Both the position numbers and the translations under genes were made by a program. Source: a virus. Taken from it: a stretch of 38,741 nt of DNA. The notes beneath the pieces were generated by a model. That model was not told the origin of the DNA and searched no databases. It saw only the letters and a program-made list of their open reading frames with translations. Where the stretch lies: positions 1 to 38,741 of IMG/VR virus record IMGVR_UViG_3300040815_003492; one strand, 5' to 3'. Shown here piece after piece: positions 4,577-20,989 of this stretch; positions within the stretch are counted from its first letter, which is position 1; the number at the start of each line of letters is the position of its first letter.

Positions 4577-5599
4577 ATGAGAGCAAATATCAATTTAATA
4601 CCAAGACAAGATGTGGACTATGACATATGGGCTCCCATGGCGTTGGGAGTGAAACCATCACCAGATCCAAAAATTAATGCTGTGGAAAAAGAATGCCTCG
4701 AACTTTTTGCCGATGTCAAAAAAAATGAACCCATCGAGATATACAATAATGGTGAACCTCCAGCGTGGGGAGAGAGGGTGGCAGGTATATTAAAAAAAAA
4801 TGGTTACGAAAATGTCACTGTTGATCCAGGAAACGATCGTGAGTATTTCCATAATAAATCTAAATTATTTCCGGATATTAGAAAACCATACAGAATTCAA
4901 CCAATAGGGGATTTAAAGAACAAAATAGAAAAATTATTTGATTTTTATAAAACACAGACATGGACCATAGAAGAACCCAAGTCTGGAGTGTGTGGACACT
5001 ATTACAGAGGTAGAATGCTATGGACACAGGTCCAATCAGGTTATGATCCCAATGACAGTGCCAACAAAGAATTAATGGTTCGTATGAAAGAACTATTAGA
5101 GCCCACTACAAAAATGGTTAAAAAATTTCTAGAAGAAAATGAAACAGTGGTAGAAGACCTAGATGCTAAAATTACCTTAAGATTATTAGACTACGTGAAC
5201 GAAAACGATATAAATTCCAAATTGGCCAGTCATTTGGATGCCAGTTTATTAACAGGTTTATTATATCATGACGCACCATCACTTCACACCGTAGAATTCA
5301 CAGATGATTCGTTGACCAGAGAGCACTCAATACAAAGAGACATCTCCAAAGAAGTATCTGAAGGAAACTGTTTTTGGGTACCTGGCTACGTATATGCTGA
5401 TGAGATGAAATCTTATGTGTCGCCTTGTTGGCATGGAGTACAAGTTCCTATAGATTATGCTAGAAGATTATCAATGGTCATTAGGGTTGAATGTGAACTG
5501 ATTCATAATGGTGCCAAGATCGAAATGCCTGGGTATTTTTGGAATGACGAGTTAAAAACGTGGACTAAATTGCCACTCACTGATATTTTTATCTATTAA
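4577..5599 (+). CDS. 2OG-Fe(II) oxygenase, isopenicillin-N-synthase-like
   Basis: 340 residues. The C-terminal third has the double-stranded beta-helix iron site of this superfamily: HLD (HxD) in 'ASHLDASLLTGLLYHD', the distal His in 'SPCWHGVQVP', and 'ARRLSMVIRVE', where an Arg would bind 2-oxoglutarate. Layout (long N-terminal part, then HxD...H...R) matches the isopenicillin N synthase-like branch. Such enzymes hydroxylate, desaturate or cyclise small molecules or residues using Fe(II), O2 and usually 2-oxoglutarate. Its stop overlaps the convergent 50-residue gene. One of three or four such oxygenases in this window; substrate unknown. Confidence 0.75.
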   Translation: MRANINLIPRQDVDYDIWAPMALGVKPSPDPKINAVEKECLELFADVKKNEPIEIYNNGEPPAWGERVAGILKKNGYENVTVDPGNDREYFHNKSKLFPDIRKPYRIQPIGDLKNKIEKLFDFYKTQTWTIEEPKSGVCGHYYRGRMLWTQVQSGYDPNDSANKELMVRMKELLEPTTKMVKKFLEENETVVEDLDAKITLRLLDYVNENDINSKLASHLDASLLTGLLYHDAPSLHTVEFTDDSLTREHSIQRDISKEVSEGNCFWVPGYVYADEMKSYVSPCWHGVQVPIDYARRLSMVIRVECELIHNGAKIEMPGYFWNDELKTWTKLPLTDIFIY

Positions 5600-5748
5600 T
5601 TAAGTCTATTAAATTTTTTCAATAGATCCAAGTAAACCTTTTCCCAATATTCTTTGAACCACGGATCTTGAGCATTCGTCATCATAAATCTTGCGTTGTT
5701 CAACAATCTCGGTTGTTGATCCTTGTTCACTTTTATTTTTGTAATCAT
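5596..5748 (-). CDS. hypothetical protein, 50 residues
   Basis: Reads MITKIKVNKDQQPRLLNNAR and ends WEKVYLDLLKKFNRLN. Basic, soluble and mostly helical. Its ATG overlaps the stop of the upstream gene (ATGA), a strong sign of a real coupled gene. The 3' end overlaps the stop codon of the convergent oxygenase gene by 4 bases. No function recognised. Confidence 0.6.
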   Translation of the reverse strand: MITKIKVNKDQQPRLLNNARFMMTNAQDPWFKEYWEKVYLDLLKKFNRLN

Positions 5749-6179
5749 TTTAATTTTTTTAAAAATGCTTGTTCGTTGGCCAGTTTTTCTTCAGGAGTGA
5801 GCTCTGTCTTTATGACCTCGATCGTGGTTTCTTCTTTGGGTTCTTCTTTGACTAGGGATTTTGGTTTTTCTATTGGCATTCCGGATCTGTCGAACCATCT
5901 GCCGTCGTCGGTCTCGTAGGTGTGAGATCTAAAATTGTTACCGTCTATGCCTTTTACCAGAATACTTCTTTTATGAATCTTTCCTTTGTATGTTGTGCCA
6001 TTCTTGTTGATCAATTTTGTTTGACCATATATGCCTCCGTATATCCTGTCTATATAGATAGGTTTTCCATTTTGGTCTTCACCATATATATTTGAGACTG
6101 GTTTGATTATAGGTTCTGGAACAGAGGGTGATCGTATTTCTTTTAGATTGTTTAAAATTTCTTTTGTTTTTTCACTCAT
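5745..6179 (-). CDS. hypothetical protein, about 144 residues
   Basis: Starts MSEKTKEILNNLKEI (ATG at 6179; a second in-frame ATG at 6194 is less likely). The middle is repetitive in style, with beta-rich segments containing Tyr/Gly (YGEDQNGKPIYIDRIYGG, DDGRWFDRSG); the end is Glu/Lys-rich and likely coiled (KEEPKEETT...LANEQAFLKKLK). No signal peptide. It sits downstream of phage IF-1, separated by a 100-base structured leader. Function unknown. Confidence 0.6.
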   Translation of the reverse strand: MSEKTKEILNNLKEIRSPSVPEPIIKPVSNIYGEDQNGKPIYIDRIYGGIYGQTKLINKNGTTYKGKIHKRSILVKGIDGNNFRSHTYETDDGRWFDRSGMPIEKPKSLVKEEPKEETTIEVIKTELTPEEKLANEQAFLKKLK

Positions 6180-6293
6180 GTGTTTAAAGAACAACTTTTG
6201 GCACGGATGAGTTACATTCGACGGATTTGCCGTCTCAATATGTATATAGCCTAATGGGCTTTTAAAGTTGGAAACAAATGAATGGTCACCAAC
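6180..6293 (-). promoter_or_regulatory. structured leader or small RNA region downstream of infA
   Basis: On the minus strand this 114-base gap contains three possible hairpins in order: AGTTGG with CCAACT, AGCC with GGCT, and GACGG with CCGTC (5-base loop CAAAT). No ribosome site is evident before the ATG at 6179. I do not recognise a known riboswitch. It could be a leader of the 5745-6179 gene or an end structure of the infA message. Confidence 0.4.
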
Positions 6294-6512
6294 TCACCTG
6301 TGCCTAAAAGTTATTCTTCCTTTTGTTAAATCATAAGGAGATATATCAACATCAACCTTATCATTTGTTAAAATCTTAATTTTGTTCTTTTTTATTTTAC
6401 CACTGGCATATGCTAAAATATTGTGTCCGTTTTCCAACAAAACCTTGTACATCTGCCCAGGTAATACTTCTTGTATTGTTCCTGAATATTTTAGTACATC
6501 CTCTTTTGGCAT
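6294..6512 (-). CDS. infA: translation initiation factor IF-1 homologue
   Basis: 72 residues, the same length as bacterial IF-1, and alignable by eye end to end: MPKEDVLKYSGTIQEVLPG (bacterial form: MAKEDNIEMQGTV-ETLPN), 'YKVLLENGHNILAYASGKIKKN' for 'FRVELENGHxVTAHISGKMRKN', 'IKILTNDKVDV' for 'IRILTGDKVTV', and 'SPYDLTKGRITFRHR' for 'TPYDLSKGRIVFRSR'. This OB-fold protein binds the ribosomal A site during initiation. A phage copy would let the virus influence which messages are started. It is transcribed from a consensus promoter whose -10 box ends 12 bases before the ATG, leaving almost no leader and no Shine-Dalgarno site. Confidence 0.93.
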   Translation of the reverse strand: MPKEDVLKYSGTIQEVLPGQMYKVLLENGHNILAYASGKIKKNKIKILTNDKVDVDISPYDLTKGRITFRHR

Positions 6513-6524
6513 ATGTTAGTGTGT

Positions 6525-6552
6525 ATTATAAGATATTATCAAAAGATGTCAA
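6525..6552 (-). promoter_or_regulatory. consensus sigma70 promoter for infA
   Basis: -35 TTGACA at 6547-6552, 16-base spacer, -10 TATAAT at 6525-6530: both boxes match consensus perfectly. The expected start of transcription is about 5 bases before the infA ATG, so the message is nearly leaderless. Confidence 0.85.
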
Positions 6553-6567
6553 CCAATGAAAAACACA

Positions 6568-7401
6568 CTATTTCCAATATAATTCGTAGACTTTGACCCC
6601 ATGCTTCCAACTGCCATCTACATCGTTCTGGGTGATATTATCAATTTTTACATCACCGTAACCACTTTTTTTAAGGTAGGCCTGGAAATCTTCTGATTGT
6701 ACTGCTTTCCTCATTTTGGCAATAAGTTCTGGATCATCGCTGTTTGTGTATATCATTTTGATGATTGGAAAATCTGGTATTTGCATATCTAACTTATTAC
6801 CAATATAATCTTTGTCTTTTGGATTGCCCTGTATTGGACAGATCACATCTCCATTTTCCACAGACGGTCTATTCACTCCGTGACCAACATAGCCTGTGTC
6901 TATGTCACCGGCGATTATGGCGGCAAGCACATTTTTACTTCCACCATATGGAATACCTTTTACATTGACTCCGGGTTGATTGTTTATGTCATTTACCAGT
7001 CCTTTGGATAGAATCACAGATGCTCCGCCCATTGTTCTAGCATCTTTTAAATCTTTTGGATCACGAGCATTGGTACAGATATCTAGATAACTTTTACCAA
7101 TAAAAACAGTTTTTTCTGCTTTTGCAGGAAGGGGACAATCTAATTTCTTGCCCATTGCCGCGATTGCCACATCCACATTGTAGATCATGATAGCATCTTT
7201 TGTGGATTGGAATTTTGCTTCTGCATCCTCACAATTACCTGCTTGGTAAAAACTTGCTGAAGATATGTTCAATGCATTTTCAAAACTTTTTGCTAATACC
7301 GTTCCTGGTGATGCCTTGTTGCTGTGATTGACAATAGTGATTGCGTTTGCTGATGTGATCATAACAAACAAACTCATTATAATTAAACTGATTTTTTTCA
7401 T
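6568..7401 (-). CDS. tctC: periplasmic substrate-binding protein, TctC (Bug) type
   Basis: 277 residues with a clear signal peptide (KKISLIIMSLFVMITSANA, cleavage before ITIV). The mature protein has the two-lobed binding-protein style of the tripartite tricarboxylate transporter family: 'YGGSKNVLAAIIAGDIDTGYVGHG' resembles the family's 'GGSx..A..AGxVDxG' stretch. The next gene on the strand is a TctA-like membrane protein, which strongly supports this assignment. GGAGA lies 4 bases before the ATG. It would bind an organic acid in the periplasm of the infected cell. At 277 residues it is a little short for the family (about 320). Ligand cannot be read from the sequence. Confidence 0.75.
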   Translation of the reverse strand: MKKISLIIMSLFVMITSANAITIVNHSNKASPGTVLAKSFENALNISSASFYQAGNCEDAEAKFQSTKDAIMIYNVDVAIAAMGKKLDCPLPAKAEKTVFIGKSYLDICTNARDPKDLKDARTMGGASVILSKGLVNDINNQPGVNVKGIPYGGSKNVLAAIIAGDIDTGYVGHGVNRPSVENGDVICPIQGNPKDKDYIGNKLDMQIPDFPIIKMIYTNSDDPELIAKMRKAVQSEDFQAYLKKSGYGDVKIDNITQNDVDGSWKHGVKVYELYWK

Positions 7402-7456
7402 GTTTCTCCAAAATTTTAGTTTTTTTAATAATTATGACTTTGTTTTTTCTATGATG

Positions 7457-8755
7457 TTAAAAATGGATCAGATAAACCTGCATGGTTGTCCATATTATCA
7501 CATCTCCCAACAAGTATATGAATATAAAAGGCATGGCATTGATGTTATATCTTTTCATTATAAAACCAATAATTGTATATCCTAGTAGTAAGGACAAATA
7601 ACTTATCCAAGATATTTCTTGTATAGATACATCCAAGTAAATCATACCTAACACCAACATCAATAGTATTATTTTTAATTGGCTATGTGCTAGTTTTACC
7701 ATAGAGGTATAAAAGTTTATAAATCTAAGACTCAACAAGTAATAAAAAACAACAGTTACCAATGCGAATATTATTATACTATCCAACACCGACACTCCGG
7801 GCAGTACGGTGCTTGACGATTTGGCTAATTCAATGACATTTACCACTTTGATATCCATTATGTTGCTCACAATAATACTGCTTGGAGTAAAAGGCAATCC
7901 GAGAAGAAAAAAAGGCAACAGCATCATGATCACTCCGGGATTGTTGGCAGTCTCGGCCGCTATAATCTTGTCATTGGTATTGGATCTGGTTGTATGATAG
8001 GCAGTTGCCGCTGATAGTTCTGCTGACGGACCGGGAATCAAACTGACCACACAGCCTACTATGGTGTTTTTTACTACCAACCACCATGGCAGTTTTGTTT
8101 TCTTTGGTTCAAATTTTTCTTTATCGTTTTTGATAAATCCAGTGTCATATGAGACAACATCAGGAATGACAACCATTGCAAGTACCAACATAAAGAAAGT
8201 TGTGTGTTGTAAAAATATGGAAGCAGAGTACCAACTTATTGGCAAAGCATAATTGTTTTGTGGAGCGATGAAAATAGCCATGAATGCTATCAAAGCCGTC
8301 ATTAGTTTTTTATTGCTAGTGAATATCAGAAATAATATCACTGTGTACAACAAAAAAAATTTTATTTCAACTCCTCCCATGAAACGCATTCCTGATGTTG
8401 TATAGGTAGTATAAAGTATCCATACCAAACACAGTGCCGAGAAGGCGCTTATCAGACTACCTCGCGACGTTTGCCATAGCAAACTGTTTCTTTCTGATAG
8501 TGATAACTTCTTAACATCATTGACATAAATCAGGCTACTCGCATCTCCAGGAATACCCAATGTGATGGTTGATACACTGCAAAAAAATTGAGATCCTATA
8601 CTGCTGACTGCCCAGAACAATAACATTTGTTCGGGTGACCAAATTGTGGCAGTAACATACAACAGAAATGCACCCAAATATATAGGAAATACAGGAAACA
8701 ATCCTATCAGTATTCCGGTCAGGATACCAGAAGATAAAATAATTGCAAGTTCCAT
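7457..8755 (-). CDS. tctA: TctA-family membrane transporter component
   Basis: 432 residues with about 10-12 hydrophobic segments. Two family motifs are visible: 'ITLGIPGDASSLIY' in the N-terminal half and 'SLIPGPSAELSAATAYHTTR', followed by 'AAETANNPGV', in the second half; these match TctA's PG-containing repeats and EAANN motif. TctA is the large permease of tripartite tricarboxylate transporters and normally has about 500 residues plus a small partner, TctB. No TctB-like four-helix gene is present here, so the pair may borrow the host's TctB. It lies 55 bases upstream of tctC in transcription order. A phage-borne secondary transporter of this family would raise organic-acid uptake during infection. 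Confidence 0.85.
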   Translation of the reverse strand: MELAIILSSGILTGILIGLFPVFPIYLGAFLLYVTATIWSPEQMLLFWAVSSIGSQFFCSVSTITLGIPGDASSLIYVNDVKKLSLSERNSLLWQTSRGSLISAFSALCLVWILYTTYTTSGMRFMGGVEIKFFLLYTVILFLIFTSNKKLMTALIAFMAIFIAPQNNYALPISWYSASIFLQHTTFFMLVLAMVVIPDVVSYDTGFIKNDKEKFEPKKTKLPWWLVVKNTIVGCVVSLIPGPSAELSAATAYHTTRSNTNDKIIAAETANNPGVIMMLLPFFLLGLPFTPSSIIVSNIMDIKVVNVIELAKSSSTVLPGVSVLDSIIIFALVTVVFYYLLSLRFINFYTSMVKLAHSQLKIILLMLVLGMIYLDVSIQEISWISYLSLLLGYTIIGFIMKRYNINAMPFIFIYLLGDVIIWTTMQVYLIHF

Positions 8756-8769
8756 AATGTTATTTTAAC

Positions 8770-8988
8770 TTATTTTTTCTTTTCTGTCAAAATTTGACGA
8801 GGTGTTTTTGAACCAGGTGTGAGTTTTGATAAACGCAGGCTGAACAGTTTTTTTCTTCCTTTGTTGGTAACAATCACGGGTTGACCATTAATATCTGTTT
8901 CGATGCTTTTGATTGTGGCCTGTACATTACGGAAACGTCCAACTTCCACTTTATCACCTGCCTTGATTTCTATTTTATAACTTTTCAT
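8770..8988 (-). CDS. small KOW/SH3-like basic protein, 72 residues
   Basis: Basic protein. 'IKAGDKVEVGRFRNVQATIKSI', 'PVIVTNKGRKKLFSLRLSKL' suggests a small beta-barrel of the KOW/SH3 type (glycine turn in KAGDKV, then VxxGR). Such domains usually bind RNA or ribosomal proteins, but the family is not certain. It follows the 46-residue basic gene by 4 bases and is followed by tctA after 14 bases. Confidence 0.6.
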   Translation of the reverse strand: MKSYKIEIKAGDKVEVGRFRNVQATIKSIETDINGQPVIVTNKGRKKLFSLRLSKLTPGSKTPRQILTEKKK

Positions 8989-9134: not shown

Positions 9135-9740
9135 TCAATCTCCAAACAAACTCAAGTCAAAATTTAATACAGTGGCAACTAGATGAACTCTATCTTCTTC
9201 TCCACCGTTGAATGCATTATGATATTTTGTGTTATTGGTTATCCATACGTGTCCGTCTGCAGGCATATGAAAGTTCACTGACTCAACAACCATGTGAGCA
9301 CCGGGATTAGTTATGATAGGTATGTGCAGTCTGGGTTCGGGATCTCTATGCCAGCTCAATGTTGTTCTTGGCAGTTTCCAAAGCAGTCTTATTCTACCCA
9401 ATTGATACTTTGTAGATAATGTATCATACACTTCTTTGAAGTAAGTGTCTTCAAACAATTTGACAAACTCGGAATACTTGGTCTCGTCTATGGGTTTTTC
9501 TCGAGTAACTTCTATCCCCGTGTGATCTGGCTTTGTCCAAAAGTAGCCTCTCACGTTGCCTCCGGTTATGGAATTTGGATCACCGGGTATCTGTGTTAAA
9601 CAAATTGCATTGATGTCTCTTTTACCAAGCGGAGATTGTCTAGCCACACGACTATCGACTTCTTGTACTGCTGATTGTAATTTGTTTATATCAAAATACA
9701 AATTTGGATCTTGATAAAAACCTTTTGGATATACATTCAT
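9135..9740 (-). CDS. 2OG-Fe(II) oxygenase, aspartyl/asparaginyl beta-hydroxylase-like
   Basis: 201 residues. 'LSWHRDPEPRLHIPIITNPGAHMVVE' holds the HxD iron ligands (H-R-D) and the basic strand, and 'YHNAFNGGEEDRVHLVATV' holds the distal His and the Arg that binds 2-oxoglutarate. This order and the short 'HIPI...NPG' spacing match the Asp/Asn hydroxylase branch, members of which are common in marine T4-like phages. It could hydroxylate a protein residue or a small molecule. Its start overlaps the stop codon of the ALDH gene (9740), so it is in the same unit as the lysine-degradation pair. Confidence 0.8.
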   Translation of the reverse strand: MNVYPKGFYQDPNLYFDINKLQSAVQEVDSRVARQSPLGKRDINAICLTQIPGDPNSITGGNVRGYFWTKPDHTGIEVTREKPIDETKYSEFVKLFEDTYFKEVYDTLSTKYQLGRIRLLWKLPRTTLSWHRDPEPRLHIPIITNPGAHMVVESVNFHMPADGHVWITNNTKYHNAFNGGEEDRVHLVATVLNFDLSLFGD

Positions 9741-11143
9741 TATACATCAAAAGTTATGCCTTGTGCCAAAGGCAAATCTTCTCCATAATTTACAGTGATG
9801 GTTGATCTACGCATATATTGTTTCCATGCATCCGAACCACTTTCTCGTCCACCGCCTGTGTCTTTCTCTCCACCAAATGCTCCACCAATTTCTGCACCTG
9901 AAGGACCTATATTAATATTTACAATACCACAGTCTGATCCCAGCACAGATATAAATTTTTCTGCTTCTTGCAGATTATCTGTAAAAATACAAGAACTTAA
10001 TCCCTGTGGAACAATGTTGTGTTTTCTGATAGCATTATCTAGAGTGATATACTTCAAAATGTACAGTATAGGAGCAAAAGTTTCGTTGTGTACCAACTCG
10101 TCCTGCTCTTTGACTTCCACTATGGCAGGTTTTACATAGCAACCTTCGATAACTTCTCCACCGTGTACAATATGTCCTCTTTCTCGACATTTTTTTAAAA
10201 CTTCTTGCATTCTATCAACAGATTGTTGATTGATCAAAGGTCCCACTAAATTTTTAGGATCCATTGGATCACCTATTGTCAAACTGCTGTATGCAGATTT
10301 AATTTTTTCAAGTAGTGTATCGTAAATGTTTTCGTTAACAATCAATCTTCTCAGTGTTGTACATCTTTGTCCGCAAGTTCCCACAGCACTGAATACTATG
10401 GCTCTAATCGCAAGATTCAAGTTTGCGTGTTGTGAAACTATCATTGCATTGTTACCACCCAATTCTAATAAAGATTTTCCTAATCTTGCCGAAACCCTCG
10501 GAGCCAATGCTTTGCCCATCTCTGTGGAACCTGTGGCACTTACTAATTTTATTCTAGGATCGTCTGCTATCCATTCGGCGGCTTCTTTTCCGCCTTCGAC
10601 TATGCCCAATAGATCTTGTAAATGAAATCTATCACCTTGTGTATGTTTCACTGTCACGTTTTTTAAAAATTCAACAATTGACTCATCCCATAACTCTTTA
10701 CATTTTAGAGTGATGTTCATACTGAGGGGTGATGGTTTCCATACAACAGAATTTCCACACACTATAGAAAGTATATGATTCCATGACCATACAGCACAAG
10801 GAAAATTAAAAGCAGATATGACCCCAACAACTCCGAGTGGATGCCATACTTCCATTAACTTGTGATCTTGTCTTTCCGATGGCATGGTCAATCCGTAAAG
10901 TTGTCTTGACAATCCCACCCCGAAATCACACATATCTATCGCTTCTTGTACCTCTCCTATTCCTTCCGCAATAATTTTTTTGGAATCCTTTGTGACCAGT
11001 TCTCCTAACTCTTGTAAATTTTCTCTTAATTTGTTGCCAAATATTCTGATTAGTTCTCCTCTTTTTGGAGCAGGAACATTTTTCCATAACATCTGGGCGT
11101 CCATGGCCCTGTTGACAATCACGTTATATTTTTGTTTATCCAT
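9740..11143 (-). CDS. ALDH7-family aldehyde dehydrogenase (alpha-aminoadipic semialdehyde dehydrogenase)
   Basis: 467 residues from the ATG at 11143, which has GGAG 6 bases upstream; a longer frame to 11179 is inside the previous gene. Hallmarks of the antiquitin (ALDH7) group are clear: 'SAFNFPCAVWSWN' (NAD site), 'LELGGNNAMIV' (general-base Glu), 'GTCGQRCTTLRR' (nucleophile Cys), and the C-terminal 'GPSGAEIGGAFGGEKDTGGG', 'WKQYMRRSTITVNY', 'LPLAQGI'. This family oxidises alpha-aminoadipic semialdehyde (in equilibrium with piperideine-6-carboxylate) to 2-aminoadipate with NAD+, the second step of lysine degradation by the saccharopine or lysine-6-dehydrogenase route. It directly follows, and overlaps by 8 bases, a saccharopine/lysine-dehydrogenase gene. 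Confidence 0.9.
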   Translation of the reverse strand: MDKQKYNVIVNRAMDAQMLWKNVPAPKRGELIRIFGNKLRENLQELGELVTKDSKKIIAEGIGEVQEAIDMCDFGVGLSRQLYGLTMPSERQDHKLMEVWHPLGVVGVISAFNFPCAVWSWNHILSIVCGNSVVWKPSPLSMNITLKCKELWDESIVEFLKNVTVKHTQGDRFHLQDLLGIVEGGKEAAEWIADDPRIKLVSATGSTEMGKALAPRVSARLGKSLLELGGNNAMIVSQHANLNLAIRAIVFSAVGTCGQRCTTLRRLIVNENIYDTLLEKIKSAYSSLTIGDPMDPKNLVGPLINQQSVDRMQEVLKKCRERGHIVHGGEVIEGCYVKPAIVEVKEQDELVHNETFAPILYILKYITLDNAIRKHNIVPQGLSSCIFTDNLQEAEKFISVLGSDCGIVNINIGPSGAEIGGAFGGEKDTGGGRESGSDAWKQYMRRSTITVNYGEDLPLAQGITFDV

Positions 11144-12158
11144 AAAGTTCTCCAAATTTATTACCAGTGAATACATCAAACGGTATATTTTCTTGACGTT
11201 GAAATCCTTTGCCTTTTAATTTGCCTTCGGCATAGGCCAGGACTACCGCACAGGCCCCGGATGCAGTGGTTCTCTGTATGGCACTGAAGTTTTCATCTCC
11301 GTAAATTTTTTTACTATACGTTACTTCTTGTAGCATACCATTCTTGATGCCGACCACACTGACGAACATCACAATGACATCAGCGGTAGTGTAAGGCACT
11401 TCCTGATCAAATAGATCAATAAATTTTTCTTTGTTGTGTTTTAAATTCAAATCGTCCAACAAGAATTTCATGCTGGCATGATGTCCTGGATATCTTATGG
11501 TTTTGTAGTCAAGTGTTTTGACTGTGTCAGAAAATGTTTCACACATAGAGGCCGCTCCACCAGATGTGTTAAAAGCCTCATATCTATCACCATCAACATA
11601 TAAAGTTTCTAAACCGTCCAATGGTAGTGTTTTGATGTGTTTGTTATTTCTAATAACATCACAATCATTTACGTATTCGTTGATCAATCCGGACGTACTC
11701 CATGTGAGATAATAGGCCATGGCATTGTTTGGATACTTAGGCAATGCTCCACCTCTCATATTAACTTTGTCCACTCTTTCAAATTGTTTGATAAGATTAC
11801 TTGCAACAATATTAATGGCTCCCGGAGCAAAACCACACTGCGGCATCATGAATGTGTCTGATTTGAAAGTCTTGATGTGATCTGTCACTGCTGTGTCTTC
11901 TGTGAGATCAAAATATGCCACATTGAATTTATTACAGGCATCTGCTATCAAAGGATTAGCATCATAAGGTGCTCCTGAGACCAATATATCTTGTTTAGAC
12001 ACAAAGGATTCCAGGTCGTCTTTGTTGAATACATCTATCTTTTGTACTTCATTTTTTTGTATTTTGTCCGCTATACTAATATTATGATCTGTTGTTTTTA
12101 GATAAGCATATATTGTTGATCCAATTTTACCAGAACCTATAATTCCAATATTTTTCAT
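11136..12158 (-). CDS. saccharopine / lysine-6-dehydrogenase family protein
   Basis: 340 residues. N-terminal Rossmann motif IGSGKIGSTIYAYL (residues 5-18); 'VSGAPYDANPLIADACNKFNVAYFDLTED' and 'MPQCGFAPGAINIVASNL' are typical of the saccharopine dehydrogenase family, including lysine 6-dehydrogenase. It would form alpha-aminoadipic semialdehyde from saccharopine or directly from lysine, reducing NAD(P)+. The coupled ALDH7 gene would complete conversion to aminoadipate. The GGAG that serves the ALDH start lies within its last codons. Which of the two substrates is used cannot be decided by eye; absence of a lysine-ketoglutarate reductase gene in the window favours lysine 6-dehydrogenase activity or use of a host enzyme. 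Confidence 0.8.
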   Translation of the reverse strand: MKNIGIIGSGKIGSTIYAYLKTTDHNISIADKIQKNEVQKIDVFNKDDLESFVSKQDILVSGAPYDANPLIADACNKFNVAYFDLTEDTAVTDHIKTFKSDTFMMPQCGFAPGAINIVASNLIKQFERVDKVNMRGGALPKYPNNAMAYYLTWSTSGLINEYVNDCDVIRNNKHIKTLPLDGLETLYVDGDRYEAFNTSGGAASMCETFSDTVKTLDYKTIRYPGHHASMKFLLDDLNLKHNKEKFIDLFDQEVPYTTADVIVMFVSVVGIKNGMLQEVTYSKKIYGDENFSAIQRTTASGACAVVLAYAEGKLKGKGFQRQENIPFDVFTGNKFGELYG

Positions 12159-17448: not shown

Positions 17449-17755
17449 TTGGGGGAACTTCTGTTCCCAGGTGTCCCCAAACCCGCAAGATTGTTGGCTA
17501 TTAAGCCGCTAATCTTAGTTGAGATTGACCAACTGTTAGGTCAGCAAATCCCAATGCTTTTTTATTAGCATTTATAAAATAACCCGATTACGTCGGAATA
17601 ATCACGATGAACTCCAGATAGTTTTAACTGTCAATCGATCCTAGTTCACCCCCTCAAAGCACAAATCTATTGTGTGTGTTTCAAGTGAGTGGTGGAGGTG
17701 GTCGGTACTGCCCCGACGTCTTGTCCAGGTATTGTCTACCCATCAACGTCCATGC
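17449..17755 (-). ncRNA. ssrA: two-piece (circularly permuted) tmRNA
   Basis: On the minus strand the acceptor piece comes first: T-arm stem GTCGG/CCGAC with a 7-base loop (17701-17717), then CACCTCC and an encoded ACCA ending at 17690. After a 36-base spacer the coding piece begins at 17653 with GGGGGTGAACTAGGATCGA. The 5' GGGGGTG pairs with CACCTCC over 7 bp and gives G-U at the third pair, the alanine-tRNA identity element. A tag frame starts at the GCT at 17569 and ends LRLAA-TAA-TAG at 17501. This permuted order is typical of alphaproteobacteria, pointing to the host. tmRNA rescues stalled ribosomes and tags their peptides. Outer ends are approximate; a GGGAAC/GTTCCC hairpin (17453-17468) marks the 3' region. 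Confidence 0.88.
17501..17569 (-). other. tmRNA proteolysis-tag reading frame
   Basis: Resume codon GCT at 17567-17569; 22 codons starting Ala-Asn-Lys-Lys and ending Leu-Arg-Leu-Ala-Ala, then TAA and TAG. The AN start and LAA end are the usual tag features; the length is at the long end, and the middle (GFADLTVGQSQ) is unlike the short ANDENYALAA-type tags. Confidence 0.8.
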
Positions 17756-17759
17756 TAGT

Positions 17760-17788
17760 ATTTAAACACATTAATGGTATTTTGTCAA
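17760..17788 (-). promoter_or_regulatory. probable tmRNA promoter
   Basis: -35 TTGACA at 17783-17788, 17-base spacer, -10 TTAAAT at 17760-17765, which would start transcription near 17753, just before the acceptor piece. Its -35 forms an inverted repeat with that of the divergent promoter. Confidence 0.6.
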
Positions 17789-17792
17789 TAGG

Positions 17793-17821
17793 TTGACACT
17801 TGTTTTTTTGGATGCTAATAT
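17793..17821 (+). promoter_or_regulatory. sigma70-type promoter, leaderless, for the 72-residue gene
   Basis: -35 TTGACA at 17793-17798, 17-base spacer, -10 TAATAT at 17816-17821, then 6 bases to the ATG at 17828. Divergent from the tmRNA promoter, with only 4 bases (TAGG) between the two -35 boxes. Confidence 0.7.
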
Positions 17822-18211: not shown

Positions 18212-19147
18212 ATGAAGAAAATGATTCTGACGTTGTTGATATCTATCATAACAACAACAATATCGGCCAAGGAATTTACAATGGCCATTCAACCCACCTT
18301 TGGTGCTCATCAGCATATAGGATATGAAATAATCGAGAGATTAGAAGCACGAGGCATAACAGTAAACACAGTACCAACAAAATCATCCATCAAAGGCAAT
18401 TCCTTACTGATGAATAAACAGATAGATGTCAACGTGGGGTCTATCACATCGTTCATTGTTTTAAATGATAAGATGCCTGAGCAAAGTTTGTTGCTATCTG
18501 CCATTGGGCATTACAAGTATTTCTTACAATGTACACCTGACATCAAAACAATGGACGATGTTAAAACTACAAAAATTGTCACTTCTGGTAGAAACACCTT
18601 GGAACATCACACAATCAGGTGGTTGGCAAAAGAACACTTTGGAGATCCTTATGCACTTGATGAAAATTTTATTACCATGAAAAGACCTCAAATATGGCAA
18701 ATATTGCAGGCCGGATCTTCTGACGTGAAATGCGTGATGACCGGAGCACCATTACAGAACAAGATACAGGACGAACTGGGTTTTGTTACAGTTGCCACAA
18801 GTGATGTTGAAAAAGGTATAGCAGGATCATACAATGCCTATTGGACAAGGAAAGATTGGGTTGATCAGAATCCCAGTTTGGCTTATGCTTTCATAACAAC
18901 AGCAGTAGAAGTTATACGTGATTACAACAAAGACCCTATAACAATTTTGGAAAAATTTATTCAGAAAGACAAAATGGACACAACTGCGGAGTATCTACAA
19001 AAAGGACACATAAAAAATCAAGCAATATTCCATTCCGATCTAAGGGGATCAGAGTATTTTAATAATTTTTTATACGAAATAGAATATCTCAAAGATAACA
19101 AAGGCGACATATCAAAAATGATCTATCGTGCAGGGGCGTTGAAATAA
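18212..19147 (+). CDS. ABC importer substrate-binding protein (NMT1/SsuA/TauA type)
   Basis: 311 residues with a signal peptide (KKMILTLLISIITTTISA, cleavage near residue 19). The mature part follows the NMT1/SsuA pattern for nitrate, sulfonate, taurine or thiamine-precursor binding proteins: 'MAIQPTFGAHQHIGYEIIERLEARG', 'MNKQIDVNVGSITSFIVLND', 'IVTSGRNTLEHHTIRWLAKEHFGD'. It lacks a lipobox. It is the first gene of a plus-strand unit followed directly by an ATPase (stop and next start share bases at 19147), an SDR and a permease, so it belongs to a complete importer. A promoter with TTGACA and TATAAT lies 40 bases upstream. Ligand not readable from sequence; sulfonates, taurine or pyrimidine are the family's usual ones. 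Confidence 0.82.
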   Translation: MKKMILTLLISIITTTISAKEFTMAIQPTFGAHQHIGYEIIERLEARGITVNTVPTKSSIKGNSLLMNKQIDVNVGSITSFIVLNDKMPEQSLLLSAIGHYKYFLQCTPDIKTMDDVKTTKIVTSGRNTLEHHTIRWLAKEHFGDPYALDENFITMKRPQIWQILQAGSSDVKCVMTGAPLQNKIQDELGFVTVATSDVEKGIAGSYNAYWTRKDWVDQNPSLAYAFITTAVEVIRDYNKDPITILEKFIQKDKMDTTAEYLQKGHIKNQAIFHSDLRGSEYFNNFLYEIEYLKDNKGDISKMIYRAGALK

Positions 19148-19698
19148 TGCAATTGATTTCCGTTGCTCCTCTCAGAAACAATGTAGAGTTATTTAGACCT
19201 ATAACTCTACATCTACGACCCGGCGAAGTAAACACGTTGATGGGAGCATCGGGTATTGGAAAAACTAGTCTTCTCGAATGTATCTCCGGAGGTTGTGAAT
19301 ACACAGGAAAGATCATAGACAATTCAAATATTTTCAGGGTATTTCAAGACACCAATCAACTATTTCCTTGGATGACCGTGAGGGAAAATTTAAGACTGGT
19401 TACAGATATAAATTGGAACAAGATTGCTAAAAAATTAAAATTAGAAAAACATTTGGATAAAATGCCCAACGAGTGTTCAGTTGGTCAGAAACAACGGTTT
19501 ACTCTGATGAGAGCTCTATATAGTGATAGATCAATATTGTTATGTGACGAACCCATGAGCGGTGTTGATGGTGCCACAGGAAAAGAAATAGTGAGAGAAT
19601 TTAAAAAATTAGTCAAAAGCACAAACAAAAAAGTTTTATGGGTCACACACAATCAAACAGAAGCCAAACAACTCGGAAAGGTTATAAAAATACAATGA
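19147..19698 (+). CDS. ABC transporter ATPase, short form
   Basis: 183 residues, shorter than the usual 230-260, but every catalytic motif is present: Walker A GASGIGKT (33-40), Q-loop Gln67 in 'VFQDTNQLFPWMTV', signature 'SVGQKQR' (111-117; Val for the first Gly of SGGQ), Walker B SILLCDE (129-135), and H-loop His168. The 'LFPWMTVREN' text is typical of the nitrate/sulfonate/taurine ATPases, matching the binding protein. The missing length is at the N-terminus and after the H-loop. The stop overlaps the SDR start (ATGA). It would power uptake through the permease encoded two genes downstream. Confidence 0.88.
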   Translation: MQLISVAPLRNNVELFRPITLHLRPGEVNTLMGASGIGKTSLLECISGGCEYTGKIIDNSNIFRVFQDTNQLFPWMTVRENLRLVTDINWNKIAKKLKLEKHLDKMPNECSVGQKQRFTLMRALYSDRSILLCDEPMSGVDGATGKEIVREFKKLVKSTNKKVLWVTHNQTEAKQLGKVIKIQ

Positions 19699-20264
19699 AA
19701 ATAGCATTAACTGGACATACTTCTGGTATTGGCAGAGAGTTTGCTGAAGCATTGAAAGATCAAGAATTAAAATGTTTTAGTAGATCAAACAGTTATTCAA
19801 TTGATACTAAAGCAGAAAGAGATAGGATTGTTAGAGAAGCACAAGATTGTGATGTATTCATCAGCAATGCATTTTCTGATGAGAACCCATGGGGTCAAAC
19901 AGAATTATTATTTGATCTATGGCAAGTTTGGAGAGGATTAAACAAAAGGATAATCTTAATATCAAGTTCTAATACACATCGATGGGAAAAAATAATGCAT
20001 GGCACTCGAGGAATTCAATATAGAACAGCCAAACAGTCTTTGGAGAATGCCGCAGAGCAGTTATGGAATGAATCTGATTGGCCATTAATCAATATTGTGG
20101 CTCCAACACTGATGAGAATTGAGAGAACTAAACATCTTAATTTTGGTCATCAAATGGACCCAAAAAATCTTAGCGATGCTGTAAGAAGAATATGTTTTGA
20201 GCAAGGACATCAAACACGAAAACTTATTTTTAATTGGTGGCCCAACACAGAAGGAAAACAATGA
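19695..20264 (+). CDS. short-chain dehydrogenase/reductase (SDR)
   Basis: 189 residues from the ATG at 19695, overlapping the ATPase stop; a longer frame from 19638 lies within the ATPase gene. Classical SDR features: TGHTSGIG (6-13), 'DVFISNAF' for the NNAG position, catalytic Ser in 'ILISSSN' (90-92), and YRTAK (Tyr109, Lys113). At 189 residues it is shorter than typical SDRs (about 250), and the C-terminal substrate loop is reduced. It is coupled by ATGA overlaps to the ATPase before and the permease after, so it probably acts on the imported compound. Such an enzyme within an importer operon of a phage is unusual. Confidence 0.82.
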   Translation: MKIALTGHTSGIGREFAEALKDQELKCFSRSNSYSIDTKAERDRIVREAQDCDVFISNAFSDENPWGQTELLFDLWQVWRGLNKRIILISSSNTHRWEKIMHGTRGIQYRTAKQSLENAAEQLWNESDWPLINIVAPTLMRIERTKHLNFGHQMDPKNLSDAVRRICFEQGHQTRKLIFNWWPNTEGKQ

Positions 20265-20989
20265 ACGGCATAAAAAGTTTTGCGATAATATTGGTTATTT
20301 GGCAATTGATATCAATGCTCATAGGAAACAGTTATATCTTGCCAGGTATAGATCGATTAATAGTAGAATATCCAAAATTGTTCTCTGATCTTAGATTCAT
20401 TCATTCACTGAATGATACTTTAATTTTTTTATTCAAATCTTGGATTTTAATATCAATAATTTTATTTGTTGTTGTTATTTTATCGGTATTAAACAGATCT
20501 TTTAGATTCATATTTAAGAGCCTATGTGCATCTTTACAGCCTACACCAACGTTTGCATGGTTACCGGTGTTCTTGCTTGTATTTGGCGTAAATGAAATCA
20601 CAATGATATTTTTATTGATATTTGCAACCATATGGATGGTAGGACTCAACATGATTGCTGTGCTAGAACATTCAATCTCCCAGTGGTCAAAGCATTGTGT
20701 TAATTTAAAACTATCTGTGCTAGATAGTGTTACCAAAGTTTATCTACCCAGTCTAAAACCTCTACTGATAGCCAATGTTAAAACTTGTTGGAATTTCAGT
20801 TGGCGAATACTGATTGGAATAGAAGTTGTATTTGGCACAATAGGACAGCACTGGGGAATTGGAACATATATGACAGATGCAAAAGATGTGATGGAAACAT
20901 CCACTATGTACGCTGTCTTTTTTATTATTATATTAATAGGTATCGTAGTGAACGAGCTATTTGATAAAACCCTTAAGGAGAAAAAGTAA
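20261..20989 (+). CDS. ABC importer permease (SsuC/TauC type)
   Basis: 242 residues from the ATG at 20261, overlapping the SDR stop (ATGA). Six hydrophobic segments: FAIILVIWQLISM, FLFKSWILISIILFVVVILSVL, FAWLPVFLLVFG, ITMIFLLIFATIWMVGLNMI, a later one around WRILIGIEVVFG, and MYAVFFIIILIGIVV. The cytoplasmic EAA-like loop appears as 'KLSVLDSVTKVYLPSLKPLLIANVK'. 'LQPTPTFAWLPVFLLVFG' is the pattern of the sulfonate/taurine/nitrate permeases ('PIPxxAWxPL'). It completes the importer: binding protein, ATPase, SDR, permease, all on one strand. Confidence 0.88.
   Translation: MNGIKSFAIILVIWQLISMLIGNSYILPGIDRLIVEYPKLFSDLRFIHSLNDTLIFLFKSWILISIILFVVVILSVLNRSFRFIFKSLCASLQPTPTFAWLPVFLLVFGVNEITMIFLLIFATIWMVGLNMIAVLEHSISQWSKHCVNLKLSVLDSVTKVYLPSLKPLLIANVKTCWNFSWRILIGIEVVFGTIGQHWGIGTYMTDAKDVMETSTMYAVFFIIILIGIVVNELFDKTLKEKK

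Follow-up and report, generated by a model that had tools for sequence, protein, structure and literature searches.

The 38,741-bp stretch of DNA analysed here (the window, which is the single IMG/VR record IMGVR_UViG_3300040815_003492) encodes a TctA-family permease next to a TctC-like binding protein. We consider it likely that the two form a two-component TTT uptake system that is kept by phages and is independent of TctB. This reduced, two-gene form of a bacterial three-part nutrient importer is found in many uncultured phages. As judged from sequence, the virus probably equips the cell that it infects with its own system for taking up small organic acids.

A TctA–TctC gene pair in viral DNA

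The window is identified as viral (phage) DNA, because it is an IMG/VR record and encodes a ribonucleotide reductase, a DNA ligase, a glucosaminidase endolysin and an Mtd-type (tail-fibre-type) tail protein; a virion structural match was also obtained. The coordinates of the relevant features are given in Table 1. The preliminary description had reported a binding protein adjacent to a TctA-like membrane protein, and both ORFs are indeed intact neighbours on the minus strand, separated by 55 bp. The promoter candidate listed for tctA is weak, because promoter-like sites in this AT-rich region were not enriched (17 found vs 14.4 expected in shuffles).

Table 1. Features of the window that bear on the TctA–TctC pair
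Feature	Position	Strand	Basis or remark
TctC/Bug-type solute-binding protein, 277 aa	6568..7401	-	AF2, Foldseek, fold Z, family profile
Putative Sec signal peptide MKKISLIIMSLFVMITSANA, ANA cleavage site	7342..7401	-	by eye from translation
GGAG, likely Shine-Dalgarno of the tctC-like gene	7406..7409	-	sequence read directly
TctA-family permease, 432 aa, short form	7457..8755	-	PF01970, hhalign, AF2
AAETANN motif (canonical equivalent APEAANN)	7940..7960	-	alignments; E268, A270 and N272 invariant
Sigma-70-like promoter candidate TTGACA-17-TAAAAT, 11/12	8762..8790	-	consensus scan; ends 7 bases before tctA start
Lysine-type cassette: AspH-like oxygenase, P6C dehydrogenase, saccharopine-dehydrogenase-like	9135-12158	-	found in many viral contigs
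tmRNA, permuted, alphaproteobacterial-type	17450-17808	-	Rfam RF01849, 112 bits

The permease

The window permease matched Pfam PF01970 above the curated cut-off across its full length (residues 7–411; E 3.1e-25; 89.1 bits, cut-off 28.9), as did all 19 of the viral permeases tested. Profile–profile comparison by hhalign aligned the viral permease family with canonical TctA at 100% probability (E 4e-46). This alignment ended at column 463 of the 505 in the canonical profile, which indicates that the final stretch of canonical TctA is absent from the viral permeases. The preliminary description had named the loss of essential helices from TctA as evidence against its reading, and part of such a loss was found: all viral members lack the C-terminal stretch (about the last 40 residues in the window permease) and the FGxGxxEG loop, and retain the rest of the protein. 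Hydropathy analysis predicted 10 transmembrane (TM) helices in the window permease, which was counted as agreeing with the approximately 12 expected for TctA; short forms mostly had 9–11 and long forms 9–13. For bacterial TctA, 9–12 TM helices have been reported (PMC5812351). The AF2 model, built from the window protein and its viral homologues only, had a pLDDT of 85.0. A search of the PDB copy yielded no TctA structure for fold comparison, and the best fold match, to a YS1 transporter (Z 10.7), was too weak to be of use. Weak tblastn matches were obtained on plasmids, and among those listed with gene annotation all were TctA-type permeases.

The motif G-Hy3-G-Hy3-G-Hy2-P-G-Hy-G was tested in both TctA repeats. 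In TM1, the corresponding G-x3-G-x3-G-x2-P-G stretch reads GILTGILIGLFPVFP, in which the three glycines and the proline are kept and the glycine of PG is lost, so that the alignment shows GLFPVFP where GxxPGxG is usual. In the second repeat, NTIVGCVVSLIPGPS, P-G is kept (LIPGPS) and two glycine positions are substituted. Other branches of the viral permeases retain IPGAG. Thus, of the PG and EAANN motifs claimed at the outset, PG stands for the second repeat and fails for TM1 (PVFP), and EAANN in fact reads AAETANN. An IPG hairpin (LGIPGD) is present in the window permease; the second IPG hairpin is LPF in its branch. With the altered TM1 PG and the LPF hairpin, coupling or substrate handling may differ from that of known TctA, which counts against the transporter reading.

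The binding protein

When the single protein was used as query, the match to Pfam TctC (PF03401) was weak and below the cut-off (E 0.008), and even at E 0.01 this family was matched by just 2 of 15 viral binding proteins. The assignment became firm with the profile of the viral family and the AF2 fold. All eight PDB matches of the family profile were TctC/Bug proteins (best E 6.7e-7), and hhalign against TctC gave 98% (E 8e-14); together with the hhalign result for the permease, this bears out both family assignments made in the preliminary description. The AF2 model, for which the input was again the window protein and viral homologues only, had a pLDDT of 90.8, and its best Foldseek match was TctC 4x9t (E 3.7e-12). 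In the VIA fold comparison, eleven TctC/Bug entries were retrieved at Z 17.8–21.4, with Bug27 the best, and the next fold followed at Z 12.8. The modelled fold is clearly that of TctC/Bug proteins. The earlier assertion that the binding protein carries a signal peptide also held, since the N-terminus is Sec-like by eye (Table 1), and it is similar in the viral homologues listed after correct placement of their starts.

Occurrence in other viral contigs

With TctA or TctC as a single-protein query, viral_contigs, genome_contigs and INPHARED yielded no relative, because the proteins are too divergent. An alignment of the window TctA with seven annotated plasmid TctAs was then run against viral_contigs, and 97 stretches encoding relatives were detected, of which 80 were kept. 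Among the loci fetched, the same pair was present in about 60 further loci with 24 distinct short permeases (clustered at 85% identity, many loci being near-copies; all 24 entered the tree, four of them from cellular bins). The closest relative lies on another viral record (L045); it has 61% identity along its full length, and the TctA–TctC order there is unchanged. The permeases of L046–L050 were 35–38% identical.

The short set comprised 66 permease loci (permeases of 419–445 aa), including the window and leaving out L183 as an edge-cut form. A small binding protein was found near the permease in 62 of these, and the four loci that lacked one (L054, L064, L067 and L098) were all cut by a contig end. 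The two genes are directly adjacent in the branch of the window. In most loci of the largest branch, the binding-protein gene lies on the opposite strand at a distance of approximately 1.1 kb, and the partnership there is therefore inferred.

The evidence for the pair is metagenomic. No convincing copy was found in the phage records of INPHARED; the matches that related viral permeases gave there seem to be bacterial sequence filed under phage, for example Salmonella genome contigs.

Annotation misses this system, because none of the 19 viral permeases matched a PHROG family and the Pfam TctC model recovers so few of the binding proteins.

Absence of TctB

The preliminary description had noted that no TctB-like gene was seen, and had proposed that one be sought in flanking DNA and elsewhere in the phage. 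The window contained no match to TctB (PF07331) even at E<=10, and hence no complete tripartite TTT system with TctB encoded alongside tctA. A local HMM detected TctB near none of the 66 short permeases, in contrast to 44 of 66 canonical (long) loci that served as the positive control. Likewise, when 49 viral records with short TctA were searched in full, among them long relatives of 158–250 kb, none had a Pfam TctB match above the cut-off (control L120, E 1e-15). A multi-TM neighbour of TctB size, defined by size and hydropathy, occurred at 1 of 58 short loci vs 31 of 52 canonical loci. The absence of TctB is thus a property of the whole family rather than a gap of this fragment. A viral substitute for TctB was also considered and rejected, as no small multi-TM gene recurred beside the pair, with two exceptions: DUF6580 in eight loci of one branch, and a 78-aa protein about 4 kb away in nine.

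Phage origin and selection

At least one phage hallmark gene was present in 12 of 50 records (terminase in 11, T4 portal in 9), including those of 158, 166, 171, 177, 235 and 250 kb; the remaining 38 records were mostly short fragments. In the tree, a branch with 100/100 support separated the short permeases from 42 canonical TctA sequences, and what it says of origin is limited by the arbitrary rooting, by two rows with long branches and by a sampling of archaea that consists of one plasmid TctA (L043, long form). Short permeases were also found on four contigs from cellular bins, three of which (L145, L147 and L193) have phage-like neighbours. The fourth, L144, from a gammaproteobacterial MAG, has bacterial neighbours and encodes a short TctA and a small TctC without an adjacent TctB (5153–7303). 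Its permease lies within the branch of the window, among phage sequences, and among 24 genomes of the order to which this MAG belongs, no other carries the gene.

For both genes, dN/dS was about 0.06–0.3 among related viral pairs, which indicates that viral TctA–TctC pairs are under purifying selection. Comparison of the window with L045 gave 0.20 for TctA and 0.34 for the binding protein, values that are rough because dS exceeded 1.2.

Genomic neighbourhood

The pair lies downstream of the lysine-type cassette (Table 1). The L-piperidine-6-carboxylate dehydrogenase of this cassette scored 701 bits, just below the equivalog cut-off of 730, and the cassette suggests conversion of lysine to 2-aminoadipate by the phage. 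Functional coupling of cassette and transporter was considered and found to be unsupported, as none of the 36 cassette-sharing viral records fetched carries TctA or TctC. AspH-like oxygenases are common in marine phages. An upstream oxygenase of this type was present in 42 loci, and in L129–L134 it occurs with the TctA–binding-protein pair at a distance of about 8 kb. An ATP-grasp-looking protein was found in 52 loci; its family had no match in the PDB. Immediately upstream of tctA is a small gene (8770–8988), which is followed by a different gene in four relatives that have it, indicating that in this phage lineage the pair belongs to the accessory cargo.

Several other transport genes were observed. 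On the plus strand of the window, positions 18212–20989 encode a second uptake system, consisting of a TauA/NMT1-like binding protein, an ABC ATPase that is short at 183 aa, and a SaoP/NtrB-like permease, with an SDR-like ORF lying between these genes. L052, a 228-kb virus record, contains a complete TRAP operon (DctQ, DctM and DctP; 5624–8606), in which DctQ was called from its position and its TM pattern. Next comes a PP-loop gene, after which the TctA–TctC pair begins. A BtuB-like TonB-dependent receptor directly precedes tctA at L085 (7843–12051) and 12 similar loci, and in eight of these the DUF6580 membrane protein precedes the receptor. In L046 (7299–8237) and L050 (12229–13218), a DctP-type (TRAP) binding protein directly follows the tctC-like gene; as no signal peptide is evident, this periplasmic type of protein may stay in the cytoplasm.

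Proposed function and alternative explanations

In the two-component system that we favour, the binding protein would be secreted to the host periplasm during infection, where it would capture a small carboxylate and dock on TctA. TctA would then move the carboxylate into the cytoplasm by ion symport, as expected from its family, and the small subunit would be either dispensable or replaced in its role by the short TctA itself. By family default the substrate would be a di- or tricarboxylate, and the infected cell would probably benefit by gaining additional carbon or co-substrate. We tentatively suggest, as a proposal that could well be wrong, that phages keep an old two-subunit branch of TTT and that some have added a phage BtuB-like TonB receptor (13 loci including L085), giving a complete route from the outside to the cytoplasm.

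Alternatively, the phage TctA and binding protein could assemble with a resident host TctB into the full three-part transporter. Canonical TTT systems include TctB; the alphaproteobacterial-type tmRNA in the window hints at an alphaproteobacterial host, and TctB is common among alphaproteobacteria. Moreover, the small subunit was found to be essential in the related TRAP transporters (PMC5812351). However, conservation of TctB is poor, with a mean identity of 27% (PMC5812351), which makes it unlikely that phages infecting diverse hosts could broadly use the host subunits, and on L144 the pair lacks an adjacent TctB amid bacterial neighbours. Function without TctB appears better supported than use of host TctB, since the TctB-less arrangement is constant, recurring in several deep branches of the viral permeases, and we regard assembly with a host subunit as unlikely.

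Paired uptake itself might be absent: the permease could export a metabolite, or the binding protein could work alone in the periplasm to sequester or sense a ligand, as orphan TctC may. Such orphans are common in some bacteria (PMC5812351), and many loci have the two genes on opposite strands, as described above. We nevertheless find this explanation rather improbable, because permease and binding protein occur together at every locus uncut by a contig end and are directly adjacent in the branch of the window. Phages do pick up host genes, and the absence of the pair from the 36 viral records sharing the neighbouring lysine cassette would fit a recently captured fragment of a host operon that has lost tctB and is decaying or functionless. 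The intact ORFs, the purifying selection on related pairs, the separation of the viral group from all sampled host permeases, and the 61% identical homologue on L045, which is full-length and has its genes in the same order, make such a relic highly improbable. Our preferred reading remains a phage-kept pair that would work without TctB.

Comparison with known transport systems

A tctA domain match was reported on a viral contig of marine SUP05 (Roux et al. 2014, PMC4164917) and repeated in a review (PMC6359870); it is a protein-domain match only, and the available text gives no binding protein or subunit make-up. No other viral precedent was found in the papers searched, a partial literature set that makes this weak evidence, and a phage family that is widespread and encodes TctA and TctC without TctB looks new. 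Such a family would show phages supplying whole uptake systems, beyond single binding proteins or enzymes.

With TTT (TC 2.A.80, e.g. Salmonella TctCBA) the phage pair shares a TctA that has the two repeats, the IPG hairpin and the AAE-ANN motif, and an adjacent gene for a binding protein that combines the TctC/Bug fold with a signal peptide. It differs in lacking TctB, in the changed TM1 PG of the window's branch, and in the lengths of the permease (419–445 aa vs about 490–520) and of the binding protein (254–292 aa vs about 310–340). Stand-alone archaeal TctA (arCOG04469, COG1784), which was compared outside the tree, is likewise a TctA without TctB, and has been suggested to work alone (PMC5898192, citing Winnen 2003). 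Unlike the phage system, it usually has no binding protein either. TRAP (DctPQM) is also a binding-protein-dependent secondary transporter and has large and small membrane subunits, but its sequence families differ from those of TTT, and its small subunit proved essential in the cases tested (PMC5812351). For TTT, the requirement for TctB has been argued both ways (PMC5812351); with a natural, conserved TctA–TctC pair, the need for TctB in transport by this family becomes directly testable.
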